A DNA stretch of 64,000 bases from NCBI GenBank assembly GCA_902630925.1, contig CACOWO010000001.1:85856-149855 (forward strand), written 5' to 3'. This document shows, one piece after another, positions 52,906-57,071 of this stretch. Position numbers and translations under genes: made by a program. Source of the stretch: an uncultured Pelagibacteraceae bacterium (GTDB taxonomy: Bacteria; Pseudomonadota; Alphaproteobacteria; Pelagibacterales; Pelagibacteraceae). Within the stretch, counting starts at the first letter, position 1. Each line of letters opens with the position of its first letter. Under the pieces are notes generated by a model that searched no databases, had not been told where the DNA came from, and worked only from the letters and a program-made list of their open reading frames with translations.

Positions 52906-52936
52906 GGGGCGTTCTGTTGCTAGGTGCCCCAGACCT
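52906..52936. repeat. ssrA-3'-end repeat, copy 1 (distal boundary of the array)
   Basis: GGGGCGTTCTGTTGCTAGGTGCCCCAGACC matches the functional ssrA 3' end at 56766 over ~30 bp with 2 mismatches by eye. Confidence 0.85.
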
Positions 52937-52946
52937 CTTAAATTTT

Positions 52947-52997
52947 CTAGTTTGTAATCATAGCTAGTGCCATAACTAATATTAATACTTCTATCAT
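52947..52997 (-). CDS. Possible 16-aa hydrophobic peptide
   Basis: MIEVLILVMALAMITN with GGAG 8 nt upstream of ATG; very short, so speculative. Confidence 0.2.
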   Translation of the reverse strand: MIEVLILVMALAMITN

Positions 52998-53084
52998 TTT
53001 TCACTCCATTAATTTAATTATTAGATTACTATAAATTAATTCTATTCTAATAAAACTAAATTTATTCACTTATAAGTCCGTAAA

Positions 53085-53110
53085 GGGGCGTTCTGTTACT
53101 AAGTGCTATT
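53085..53110. repeat. ssrA-3'-end repeat, copy 2 (degenerate)
   Basis: GGGGCGTTCTGTTACTAAGTGCTATT; first 13 bp identical to ssrA copy, then diverged. Confidence 0.75.
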
Positions 53111-53190
53111 AAATCATTAACATTATTTATTGTTAAATTACAATTCTAATACAACCTGAAGCCCTTATTTCTTTGCTAGGAGAGCCCGTA

Positions 53191-53219
53191 TTGTGTCCGG
53201 CGGTGAGTCCGGATATGAT
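53191..53219 (+). promoter_or_regulatory. Cassette promoter, copy A (diverged)
   Basis: TTGTGT (53191-53196), 17-nt spacer, TATGAT (53214-53219), 7 nt before ATG 53227. Confidence 0.6.
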
Positions 53220-53226
53220 AAGTCTA

Positions 53227-53538
53227 ATGAAAAAACTTTTAGCGATCGTAGTTCTAGTTATGTTGTGGTGCAATATTTCTTACTCAGACATTAAAAGTGA
53301 TGCAAGTGAAACTATACTAAAAGCAAGTGCATGTTATTCATCTTTACCAAGCTATGCGCAGAAAGGTGCTGTCGATAGTTATTTAGATGCAATGACTTAT
53401 TGGAATGATGCTGTTAAAGAGGACAATATGGGCGATCCTCGTAGATTAGCATCTGCATTTTATCGTAATGCAATTGCATACGGTGGAGTTGTCTTACGAA
53501 TTGGTAGTGCATACGGTAGTCAAGCTTGCAGACAATAA
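53227..53538 (+). CDS. Small secreted protein of unknown function
   Basis: MKKLLAIVVLVMLWCNISYSDIKSDASETILKASACYSS...; signal peptide; start moved from 53173 to 53227. Confidence 0.7.
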   Translation: MKKLLAIVVLVMLWCNISYSDIKSDASETILKASACYSSLPSYAQKGAVDSYLDAMTYWNDAVKEDNMGDPRRLASAFYRNAIAYGGVVLRIGSAYGSQACRQ

Positions 53539-53602
53539 TGCACACATAGAGCGGATAGAATTAAATTAACCTAAATAACTATTAATAAATATAAGTTGCT
53601 AA

Positions 53603-53632
53603 GGGGCGTTCTGTTGCCAGGTGCCGTTAACC
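53603..53632. repeat. ssrA-3'-end repeat, copy 3
   Basis: GGGGCGTTCTGTTGCCAGGTGCC, 23 bp identical to the ssrA 3' end. Confidence 0.9.
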
Positions 53633-53696
53633 TTTAACGTTATATAACAATTCTAGATCATAAAAAATGGCTATTTCTTTGGTGGGTGAGTCCGTA

Positions 53697-53725
53697 TTGT
53701 GCCCGCCAGTGTGTTCGATTATGAT
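53697..53725 (+). promoter_or_regulatory. Cassette promoter, copy B
   Basis: TTGTGC (53697-53702), 17-nt spacer, TATGAT (53720-53725), 5 nt before ATG 53731. Confidence 0.65.
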
Positions 53726-53730
53726 GTGTT

Positions 53731-54102
53731 ATGGAAGATTTTCCTTCAAACGAACTAATTATAACTTTTAGTTTATATTCTTTTCTTGTCTTTTATTTGC
53801 AAAAATGGAGCAAAGAATTCATGGGAGCAAGCCAAGGATTTAGAATATTTTTAAATTTCTTTATGGGTATCTCGACAATTTTTGGTTTATTTTTCTTGAT
53901 TTATTATGGTTATAAAGTCGAATGGACTTCGCCACTAATTTTGTTTGCTATTTCTCTTTTCATTAAAGGTATTTTAATAGCTATTGAAGTTAAACTGTTT
54001 TTTAGAATTCAATATATAGTTCAATATATTGGCTTCATAAGTTTTATTGCTTGTCCAATATTAGCGTATAGATTGTTAGTTATATCAGGATTAATTCCAT
54101 GA
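53731..54102 (+). CDS. Multi-pass membrane protein of unknown function (cassette cargo)
   Basis: 123 aa with ~4 hydrophobic segments. Confidence 0.7.
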   Translation: MEDFPSNELIITFSLYSFLVFYLQKWSKEFMGASQGFRIFLNFFMGISTIFGLFFLIYYGYKVEWTSPLILFAISLFIKGILIAIEVKLFFRIQYIVQYIGFISFIACPILAYRLLVISGLIP

Positions 54103-54383
54103 AAAAAAGAAAGAGCCAATATTCAACGCGGGATTATACTAAAAAAGTTTATTGGTCTGGAGATAAAAAAGATTTAAGAAAATCATTCCCCAAGTGGACG
54201 ATGATTGCTTGGGCGTTAATTGATCTTACGCTTGGAGTAGGTTTAATTTGGCTTGCAATCAGTTGGGCTGAAAGCACTTGGGCTTATTATCTATTATTTA
54301 TTGGCGGACTTTTATCTTTTAGAATGTGTTACGTTCATTTAAGTTATTTATGGGGTGGAAAGATCTGGGGACCAAGCAAATGA
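54099..54383 (+). CDS. Small membrane protein of unknown function (cassette cargo)
   Basis: 94 aa, basic N-terminus then two TM segments; overlaps neighbours (ATGA-type couplings). Confidence 0.7.
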   Translation: MKKRKSQYSTRDYTKKVYWSGDKKDLRKSFPKWTMIAWALIDLTLGVGLIWLAISWAESTWAYYLLFIGGLLSFRMCYVHLSYLWGGKIWGPSK

Positions 54384-55090
54384 AAAAACTTTTAGCGATC
54401 GTGGTTCTGGGTTTGTTGTTATCAAATTGCGGACCTGTTAGACATTCATGGAAAGAAATTAATTATATTGTCGATCATAGAGATACAAGAAAAAATATTT
54501 TCAACACAAAAAAAGACTCATTAAAAACAATTTATGTTGGGGTTGGTACTGATTCTGATGAGAAATGGAAAAATATGTACTATACCAAAAGCATAGTTCA
54601 GCCCAAGGCACAACATTTTGCTCCAAAAGAAGTTATTGCAGAACAACAGTGTGTTAAAAACTTTGGACTCGAAAAAGCTGTTTTCAAAGAAATACTAGAA
54701 TTTTCAAAAGATGAAATAATAGAATATCGTTTAGGTTTTAAGAAATATGCAAAGTATTCTTGTGAAATATCAGAGAGACAATTAAAAGAGGCAAAAATTT
54801 TTCAAGAAAACACCTCATCATTAAATAATAATCAAGTTTCAAATAATACTTTAAATAGAACATTTAATTGCTCTTATCCTAGTGGAAGTTCAAAAATTAG
54901 AATTAGAGGTGGAACTGCAACAGAATTAACTTCAGCAGGTGTTGAGATTAAATATAATTATGTTGAGCTAACGAAAAAAGGAGCTTTCAGTTTAGAACAG
55001 TCTACAAAACCAGGACGTACGTTTTTTATAGGTGCTAAATCTTTTTTAAGTTTAGGTGGAGCTGAATTTTATAATGCAGTTTGTCGTTAG
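54380..55090 (+). CDS. Putative lipoprotein of unknown function (cassette cargo)
   Basis: MKKLLAIVVLGLLLSNCGPVRHSWKE, lipobox LSNC; start at 54380 rather than 54326. Confidence 0.75.
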   Translation: MKKLLAIVVLGLLLSNCGPVRHSWKEINYIVDHRDTRKNIFNTKKDSLKTIYVGVGTDSDEKWKNMYYTKSIVQPKAQHFAPKEVIAEQQCVKNFGLEKAVFKEILEFSKDEIIEYRLGFKKYAKYSCEISERQLKEAKIFQENTSSLNNNQVSNNTLNRTFNCSYPSGSSKIRIRGGTATELTSAGVEIKYNYVELTKKGAFSLEQSTKPGRTFFIGAKSFLSLGGAEFYNAVCR

Positions 55091-55094
55091 CGAG

Positions 55095-55182
55095 TGTGCC
55101 CTATGTGTGCCCAAAATAAAAAAAGTTGTGAATTAATAAGTGTTAACGCCAATACGCAGGGGCGTTCTGTTGCCAGGTGCCC
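55095..55182. repeat. 88-bp cassette right end, copy 1 (includes ssrA repeat copy 4 at 55159)
   Basis: TGTGCCCTATGTGTGCCCAAA...GTTGTGAATTAATAAGTGTTAACGC.AATACGCA-GGGGCGTTCTGTTGCCAGGTGCCC; ~85/88 identical to 56702-56789, no indels by eye. Confidence 0.95.
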
Positions 55183-55386
55183 TTAACCCACTTCTTCATA
55201 AGTACAATTTTCTGGATTGTACTTCTCATATTTACCGGTTTTTTCGTTTAAAGTCGTACCAGATAATCCCATTATACTTAACGCTTTATTTTTTTCTTTT
55301 TCTTCCAATTTTTCTTTAGTGTCGCACGCCGAATAGGCATTTTGCGAAAAAATTATTACTAGAAATATTACGATTATTTTTCTCAT
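55183..55386 (-). CDS. Small secreted protein of unknown function (reverse-oriented cargo)
   Basis: MRKIIVIFLVIIFSQNAYSACDTKEKLEEKEKNKALSIMGLSGTTLNEKTGKYEKYNPENCTYEEVG; signal peptide with AYSA cleavage site. Confidence 0.65.
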   Translation of the reverse strand: MRKIIVIFLVIIFSQNAYSACDTKEKLEEKEKNKALSIMGLSGTTLNEKTGKYEKYNPENCTYEEVG

Positions 55387-55403
55387 AATTTTTATTATCA
55401 TAA

Positions 55404-55433
55404 GGGGCGTTCTGTTGCCAGGTGCCCTTAACT
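55404..55433. repeat. ssrA-3'-end repeat, copy 5
   Basis: GGGGCGTTCTGTTGCCAGGTGCCC. Confidence 0.92.
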
Positions 55434-55498
55434 TCTTAACGTTATACAACAATTCTAGATCATAAAAAACGGCTATTTCTTTGCTGGGTGAGTCCGTA

Positions 55499-55527
55499 TT
55501 GTGCCCGCCAGTGAGTCCGGATATGAT
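55499..55527 (+). promoter_or_regulatory. Cassette promoter, copy C
   Basis: TTGTGC (55499-55504), 17-nt spacer, TATGAT (55522-55527), 6 nt before ATG 55534. Confidence 0.65.
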
Positions 55528-55533
55528 GAGTTC

Positions 55534-56103
55534 ATGAAATCTCTTCAGACAAGATATAATGATTTTAAAAAAAAAAATCTTTCTAAGCCCGGAATTGGAG
55601 AACTCTATGAACGCCAAATACGATATATCTATGAAAAAAATGGATGGTTCGTTAAACCCTACGGTATCTTAAAAGGTAGATCTGATTTAGGTAGAGATCT
55701 TCTTTGTTATAAAAAAAAGCAAATTCATATCGTTCAAGCTAAGTGCTGGTCTAGAAAAAGAACTATATTCGAAAAGCATATAATGCAGTTAGCTGGAACT
55801 ATTCTTCATTATATTAATAAACATAAAAAGAAGCCACAGGGGGTATTTATAACGACCGCAAAACTTTCACCAACAGCAAAAGACTTTGTTAAAAGTCTTA
55901 ATATAAAACATAGCTACATAAAATTAGATAAAAACTTTCCTATGATAAAATGCAACATTAATAGAAGGGGAAAGAGGCAATTTTTTCTACCTTTCGATAA
56001 ATTTTATGATCGTGTTCATATTGAAAAAAAGAAAGGTGAGTTTTATACTGATAGTATAAACGAGTGTATCAAAAAGGGATTTAAACATGTCGGAAAAAAC
56101 TAA
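55534..56103 (+). CDS. Mrr-like/PD-(D/E)XK restriction-endonuclease-fold protein (cassette cargo)
   Basis: GELYERQIRYIYEKNGWFVKPYGILKGRSDLGRDLLCYKKKQIHIVQAKCWS: E...GRD...QxK pattern; start at 55534 rather than 55501. Confidence 0.7.
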   Translation: MKSLQTRYNDFKKKNLSKPGIGELYERQIRYIYEKNGWFVKPYGILKGRSDLGRDLLCYKKKQIHIVQAKCWSRKRTIFEKHIMQLAGTILHYINKHKKKPQGVFITTAKLSPTAKDFVKSLNIKHSYIKLDKNFPMIKCNINRRGKRQFFLPFDKFYDRVHIEKKKGEFYTDSINECIKKGFKHVGKN

Positions 56104-56425
56104 TATTCTTTATCTTTGTGTGTTGATCGCAATAAGCGATTATGAGCTTCAGAACGAGGAGACCCATAAGATAATCAAAATCTCTAAAGAACTAAAAATT
56201 GATTTTAATGTTCATAATGCTTTTGAAGAGATACAAAATAAATTTCGTGAGGATTTTGATGCTGCTTGCAACTTTTATCTCAACAATATCACTACACCAA
56301 AATATCGACAACTAGCAAAAAAATATCTCAAAGATGTCGCGTTAGTTGATAATGATTTAAAGGACAGAGAAGTTAGATTTCTTGTTCTTTGCAAACAAGC
56401 TTGGGGTAGAGAGGCATTTGATTAG
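56087..56425 (+). CDS. TerB-like helical protein (cassette cargo)
   Basis: LIAISDYELQNEETHKIIKISKEL...LKDVALVDNDLKDREVRFLVLCKQAWG, TerB/DUF533-like pattern; overlaps nuclease gene by 17 nt. Confidence 0.5.
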   Translation: MSEKTNILYLCVLIAISDYELQNEETHKIIKISKELKIDFNVHNAFEEIQNKFREDFDAACNFYLNNITTPKYRQLAKKYLKDVALVDNDLKDREVRFLVLCKQAWGREAFD

Positions 56426-56517
56426 TGAAAATATTTAAAAATTTGATATAATAAATTAGTCCTGATTTAGAAATAAACTCTACTTGCTTGGACTTTAAAC
56501 AAACGCTAAAGGAGAAA

Positions 56518-56691
56518 ATGAAACTAAAAATACAATCAATAAAAGACTATTTTAAATCTAAAAAAGACAAAGGATTAAAACCAGTTTTTTTTAAAAAAAT
56601 TGGAGATCAAAATACATCTAGGGATGAGATGAAGAAAAATTTGATTGAAGTATTAGAGTCTCAAGGTTTTAAGATTAAAAACAAAAAATAA
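56518..56691 (+). CDS. Small basic protein of unknown function (cassette cargo)
   Basis: MKLKIQSIKDYFKSKKDKGLKPVFFKKIGDQNTSRDEMKKNLIEVLESQGFKIKNKK; AAGGAG ribosome-binding site upstream. Confidence 0.55.
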   Translation: MKLKIQSIKDYFKSKKDKGLKPVFFKKIGDQNTSRDEMKKNLIEVLESQGFKIKNKK

Positions 56692-56701
56692 ACTTTTTCA
56701 C

Positions 56702-56789
56702 TGTGCCCTATGTGTGCCCAAAGTTAAAAAAGTTGTGAATTAATAAGTGTTAACGCTAATACGCAGGGGCGTTCTGTTGCCAGGTGCCC
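56702..56789. repeat. 88-bp cassette right end, copy 2 (includes the functional ssrA 3' end at 56766)
   Basis: Direct repeat of 55095-55182. Confidence 0.95.
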
Positions 56790-57030
56790 CGGACCCCGTT
56801 ACTTAATTAACAAAGTTAATTAAGCTGCAAGTGCGTAACTTTCGTTAGCATTTGTAAATTGGCCCGTTACGTCGGAACCATCTCGTACGAAAGAATAGCC
56901 TTTAGACATCCGTCGATCCTAATTCACCCCCGTAAGTTGTAAATGGTGGAGGTGGTGGGTACTGCCCCCACGTCCGTAATGTTTATTACGAAATTCGTTT
57001 ATCGTCATAGTTGGAAAACCAACACTATTA
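56766..57030 (-). ncRNA. ssrA: tmRNA, circularly permuted two-piece alphaproteobacterial type (5' limit approximate)
   Basis: Minus strand: acceptor piece ...GTGGGGGCAGTACCCACCACCTCCACCA, short linker TTTACAACTTAC, then GGGGGTGAATTAGGATCGACGG...; GGGGGTG pairs with CACCTCC; tag frame GCT AAC GAA AGT TAC GCA CTT GCA GCT TAA = ANESYALAA; 3' GGGGCACCTGGCAACAGAACGCCCC hairpin/pseudoknot. Confidence 0.93.
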
Positions 57031-57071
57031 ATATAAAACTCTTATTAATAGATTCAATAAATTATTTCAAA

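Follow-up and report, generated by a model that had tools for sequence, protein, structure and literature searches.

Three open reading frames (ORFs) follow one another on the forward strand of the window (here, the whole stretch of 64,000 nucleotides that was analysed), next to a permuted tmRNA gene. The window belongs to a SAR11-type genome of 818 kb that is 72% complete, that is, an incomplete assembly. Among named genomes, single cells of Pelagibacteraceae are its closest relatives. The remaining copies of the gene pair described below come from single-cell genomes. All three ORFs lie where the sequence-only reading had placed them (189, 112 and 57 aa), and their coordinates reproduce the 17-nt overlap it had noted between the first, a predicted nuclease gene, and the second, which encodes a TerB-like protein. 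An alternative GTG start at 55501 would lengthen the nuclease ORF; the ATG at 55534 is kept in all relatives. The features of the locus are as follows, with the basis of each assignment in brackets:

52906..55403, no strand: four more inter-core units of the same array, with cores at 52906, 53085, 53603 and 55159 (core search)
55404..56765, plus strand: the whole mobile cassette, core to core, 1362 bp (att-like cores; identity with L013)
55404..55425, plus strand: left att-like core GGGGCGTTCTGTTGCCAGGTGC, a duplicate of the tmRNA gene's distal end (core search)
55488..55520, plus strand: three tandem 11-nt repeats (GTGAGTCCGTA, TTGTGCCCGCC and AGTGAGTCCGG), predicted distal integrase arm sites (sequence; left-right matching test)
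55522..55533, plus strand: TATGAT box resembling a -10 element, ending 6 nt 5′ of the ATG (read from the sequence)
55534..56103, plus strand: Mrr_cat PD-(D/E)XK nuclease, 189 aa, with predicted catalytic residues E26, D51, D55 and Q68-x-K70 (Pfam, invariant motif, dN/dS)
56087..56425, plus strand: TerB-like helical protein, 112 aa, overlapping the nuclease gene by 17 nt (Pfam TerB below cut-off; found only with the nuclease)
56518..56691, plus strand: basic 57-aa ORF at the right end of the cassette (same ORF in cassettes without Mrr)
56702..56719, plus strand: two TGTGCCC repeats spaced by a period of 11 bp, predicted to be proximal arm sites of an integrase (sequence; left-right matching test)
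56729..57039, minus strand: permuted tmRNA gene, the insertion target (ARAGORN)
56766..56787, plus strand: right att-like core, within the intact tmRNA gene (ARAGORN, core search)

A TATGAT-type box is present also at the gene starts at 53731 and 53227. A scan for the sigma-70 consensus gave no excess and lent the box no support, so that it may be read only conjecturally as a leaderless promoter.

The 189-aa protein matches the Pfam family Mrr_cat with an E value of 1.4e-10 and 41.7 bits, well above the curated cut-off of 21, which bears out its earlier assignment to a nuclease family. The residues that had been flagged as catalytic (E26, D51, D55, Q68 and K70) are invariant in 10 homologues ranging from SAR11 to a Helicobacter prophage, and PADLOC gives a weak match to mREase_IV (1.5e-4). 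The AlphaFold model of the nuclease is weak (mean pLDDT 62), with an order of secondary-structure elements that fits an alpha-beta core, and the best Foldseek match of this low-confidence model in the PDB, MspJI, is not significant (E 0.58). Searches by sequence retrieved no solved structure for the nuclease and no viral relatives in IMG/VR, and in a Pseudomonadota-wide search the window's own genome was the sole one of 349 with a match. Mrr_cat was the only domain matched, and no N-terminal recognition domain is therefore seen in the cassette nuclease. The conserved C-terminal segment of about 55 aa is common to prophage proteins and Hymenobacter plasmid proteins, and these prophage and plasmid homologues are without a TerB-like neighbour. 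The two prophage homologues (Duodenibacillus and Helicobacter) lie directly behind, and overlap, CI-type repressor genes with a Peptidase_S24 domain; genes for lysogenic immunity, lambda rexAB for one, are known from the position behind a prophage repressor.

Larger homologues of the nuclease are encoded at L019 7347-8558 (403 aa) and L053 3374-4570 (398 aa), in which a long N-terminal extension is followed by the same Mrr and C-terminal segments; in L019 the extension comprises, as judged by eye, a membrane segment and a coiled coil. In the single cell AG-430-C22 (L020 8001-8569) the nuclease gene has frameshifts at two homopolymers (A-runs) and the TerB-like gene is intact. This frameshift may reflect sequencing error, decay or phase variation.

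The earlier likening of the 112-aa protein to TerB stands as a resemblance (PF05099, E 6e-4, 20.5 bits) and not as a family assignment, the score being under the Pfam cut-off of 24.4, and the protein is for this reason named TerB-like only. Two acidic motifs (D18...E25 and D88...E95) are kept in eight SAR11 TerB-like proteins. The AlphaFold model consists of six helices at low confidence (pLDDT 73) and has no significant match in the PDB (Foldseek), and comparison by sequence with solved structures gave chance-level matches only. Among the cassette proteins PADLOC 2.0.0 matched none besides the nuclease, although its models may not include Shango and Bunzi.

For the 57-aa ORF nothing convincing was matched. 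The same ORF terminates two cassettes that lack Mrr (L116 and L125) and does not accompany Mrr at the tRNA sites, and it is on these grounds assigned to the right end of the cassette. A module of three genes, as the first description had implied, is thereby rejected, and the module is reduced to the nuclease and its TerB-like partner.

The four genomes that carry the nuclease gene (of 297 relatives searched) are also the four that carry the TerB-like gene (of 197 searched), and eight SAR11 genomes in total carry the pair when the single-cell genomes of a separate collection are counted. Neither member was seen alone among the roughly 200-300 relatives searched, and the genes overlap in every copy, by 11-17 nt. 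Three RNA genes serve as sites for the pair, namely tmRNA, tRNA-Thr and tRNA-Met; at tRNA-Thr it occurs in four genomes, in three of which it is flanked by copies of the tRNA 3′ end. For the nuclease, dN/dS is 0.02-0.13 in every pair that has diverged enough and 0.35 in one pair that is almost identical; the TerB-like gene gives 0.05-0.36. On these low values both genes are maintained, under purifying selection that is stronger on the nuclease than on its partner.

The core GGGGCGTTCTGTTGCCAGGTGC occurs six times in the window (52906, 53085, 53603, 55159, 55404 and 56766) and nowhere else in the source genome. It is present in 254 of 297 family members, often in several copies, as is expected of a tmRNA segment. 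Parsing of 58 such loci yielded 165 inter-core units, 158 of which are at most 3.2 kb long, with about 156 different ORF clusters among them; of the 165, only those of the window and of two relatives carry the Mrr-TerB pair. On its coding strand the cassette has no more than three ORFs of 40 aa or longer, none of which is an integrase, replication or packaging gene.

Several further elements were noted. A 245-bp inter-core unit of the window bears, on the minus strand, an antisense ORF at 55183-55386 for a secreted-looking product of 67 aa. Away from the tmRNA gene, a locus in G018, G036, G084, G187, G243 and other genomes has two further core-like sites (GGAGCGTT.../GGTGCGTT...), the distance between which is exactly 272 bp. 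A 40-nt DNA element, ATGAAAAAACTTTTAGCGATCGTGGTTCTGGGTTTGTTG, opens 33 genes for secreted proteins whose mature parts are unrelated (53227-53266 and 54380-54419 in the window, and 31 other genes in further loci). Identity runs from 97 to 79% within the element and is about 30% just before the ATG and past nucleotide 40, with synonymous codons fixed; both copies in the source genome, and three of four in one relative, lie in the array. It is possible that the element is a module for recombination or RNA regulation.

That the tmRNA site harbours a portable cassette, as had been proposed, is borne out by comparison with the single cell AG-898-K13. Here the unit 55403-56789 is 98.8% identical to L013 7871-9256, which occupies a different position in its array, while the chromosome around the L013 unit has only 86% and 79% identity to the window. 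The difference between the inside of the unit and its flanks points to recent horizontal transfer of exactly this unit, from core to core. A finer exchange is indicated by L020, which resembles the window (92.4%) only over 55534-56431, that is, from the ATG of the nuclease gene to just past the stop codon of the TerB-like gene. Because this likeness ends at the module, and because the same pair is found at tRNA-Thr, the Mrr-TerB module is taken to change backbones.

Short repeats with a period of 11 bp are located at both ends of many units, and in the window two of them lie beside the RNA gene and three at the far end. The repeat motif varies from unit to unit (TGTGCCC, TGTGATC, TGCGTC, CCGTACA, TTACGTG and others), and within a unit the left end matches the right: 217 7-mers are shared, against 45.8 +/- 11.4 in randomly re-paired ends, and 59 of 132 units have a left-right match, a number that reached no more than 42 in 500 shuffles. 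Lambda-type tyrosine integrases bind arm sites of this kind.

No intact integrase was found at the tmRNA gene among 297 genomes. The single PF00589 protein of the source genome lies outside the array and is probably XerC/D, because almost all relatives have one such protein of this length. A second integrase family is present in 13 of the 297 relatives, beside tRNA genes where inspected. At L138 (tRNA-Ser) and L139 (tRNA-Met), the best cases, an integrase of this family, with an Int_N domain, is combined with an AAA_25 ATPase and a terminase small subunit, which is the layout of a phage satellite. At least five further integrase elements adjoin tRNA genes in SAR11.

One tRNA-Met locus holds the satellite in G056 (L139) and the Mrr-TerB cassette in AG-430-C22 (L020). 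In this one locus pair, from which the arm match to an integrase-bearing element derives, both occupants have a copy of the tRNA 3′ end as att site, TGACACA arms at distances of 48 and 59 nt from the end of the tRNA gene, and the same layout of two plus three arms, with three more TGACACA copies each at the far end (spacing 36+12 and 37+11). A remnant of this satellite-type integrase family (MATIRKRLGKWQAQIRRK...) was also recognized inside a tmRNA unit of another SAR11 genus (L072 2255-2467). Given the att and arm sites shared at tRNA-Met and the remnant in the tmRNA unit, the cassettes are best read as mobilised in trans by satellite integrases, which would also carry out their excision. In viral contigs the tmRNA core, sought as a route to the integrase, matched marine phages with their own tmRNA and without an integrase, and matches to the arm motif were chance-like. 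The exact 23-nt att core is contained in such tmRNA-bearing marine phages (L148-L155, IMG/VR contigs), and their genomes could be landing sites or vehicles for cassettes.

The observations are drawn together in a reading, to which a probability of roughly 0.58 is given, wherein an Mrr-type nuclease and a TerB-like protein form the two-gene cargo of an integrase-less tmRNA cassette that most likely acts as an anti-phage module and most likely moves in trans. We infer a nuclease that would cut foreign or modified DNA, a TerB-like protein, made from the overlapping gene, that would sense the trigger or hold the nuclease in check, and protection against phages by the two together; the tyrosine integrase of a satellite-like element would bind the two proximal and three distal arms and recombine the RNA-gene core. 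The defence role is likely and is supported by association, namely from the homologues in prophage repressor operons, from restriction-type cargo in sister cassettes (MrcB_N with NOV_C, MrcB_N with a weak HNH match, HNH_2, PDDEXK_4, DUF4268, T5orf172 and a DNA methylase) and from the TerB domains listed for the Shango and Bunzi defence systems (PMC10952713). In many of the sister cassettes the cargo is unrelated to defence, for instance superoxide dismutase, proteases and secreted proteins. Counts of PADLOC matches were dropped as a test of defence enrichment, since helicases and other such housekeeping genes of the window are matched too, so that matches among the cargo do not by themselves amount to an enrichment.

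Two small overlapping genes that always occur together on a mobile cassette would also suit a toxin-antitoxin or addiction pair, in which the nuclease is the toxin and the TerB-like protein its inhibitor, and in which the cassette is retained in the array with no part played against phages; the frameshifted nuclease gene beside an intact TerB-like gene in L020 fits such a pair. The prophage and plasmid homologues of the nuclease, however, do without a TerB-like neighbour and sit in repressor operons, the nuclease is under stronger purifying selection than its partner, and the TerB fold is not known from antitoxins, which together render this explanation unlikely. Similarly improbable is a module for stress or DNA repair by which the host's own DNA is processed following metal or oxidative stress, in the way suggested for ter-type systems, with phage defence as a secondary effect. 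TerB domains have links to metal and stress responses and some of the sister cargo is stress-related (superoxide dismutase), yet the cassettes showed no further ter genes, the context of the prophage homologues is a repressor operon, and the rarity of the pair (4 of 297 genomes) and its horizontal mobility suit defence better than repair. That the pair aids excision or integration of the cassette, as its place between att sites might suggest, is very improbable, since it occurs in the window and two relatives only among 165 inter-core units, its block passes from one att class to another without the cassette ends (L020), and an integrase family with matching arm sites is already known.

The anti-phage cassette, so read, has likenesses to several described systems. 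With Mrr-type (type IV) restriction endonucleases it shares an Mrr_cat domain above the cut-off and the conserved E, D and QxK, but its nuclease is just 189 aa long, has the C-terminal segment of about 55 aa and is encoded in overlap with a TerB-like partner. As in Shango and Bunzi, a TerB-type protein would be part of a defence operon, whereas the partner in the SAR11 cassette is an Mrr nuclease and the TerB-like protein has no PADLOC match. Insertion at tRNA or tmRNA genes recalls tycheposons, VEIMEs, PICI and PICMI, the last of which are satellites that carry defence genes (PMC10803314), and related autonomous SAR11 elements encode a tyrosine integrase, an AAA ATPase and a terminase small subunit; the Mrr-TerB cassette differs in its size of 1.4 kb and in having no integrase, replication or packaging gene. 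In the additive flexible genomic islands with tRNA-targeted cassettes of Actinomarinales (PMC7771536) and Methylophilaceae (PMC10872708), small tandem cassettes likewise lie between direct repeats of an RNA gene, but the SAR11 target is the tmRNA gene, and matched arm-type repeats tie the cassette ends to the satellite integrase family. Small, diverse cassettes with no local integrase are typical also of integron arrays and of CALINs, which are arrays of cassettes without a local integrase (PMC11389934), although the SAR11 core reads as a copy of tmRNA and not as attC, and the related integrases are of satellite type and not IntI. Like a CIME-type non-autonomous integrative element, the cassette is flanked by att copies and has no integrase inside.

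A broader reading is more tentative and falls somewhat short of even odds. On this reading SAR11 would possess an integron-like economy of integrase-less cassettes of 0.2-3 kb at tmRNA and tRNA genes, moved in trans by satellite integrases through class-specific arms in the two-plus-three layout, in which cargo blocks swap arm and att classes, the border of the exchange falling precisely on the start codon, and Mrr-TerB would be one of many defence cargoes and a previously undescribed two-gene system.

SAR11 bacteria are among the most abundant marine bacteria, with tiny genomes that come under heavy phage attack, and how they gain and share defences is poorly understood. If the anti-phage reading is true, the core, the arm repeats and the candidate integrase family would constitute a testable vehicle by which defence modules spread between SAR11 strains and insertion sites, and the cassettes would not each need to pay for an integrase of their own.
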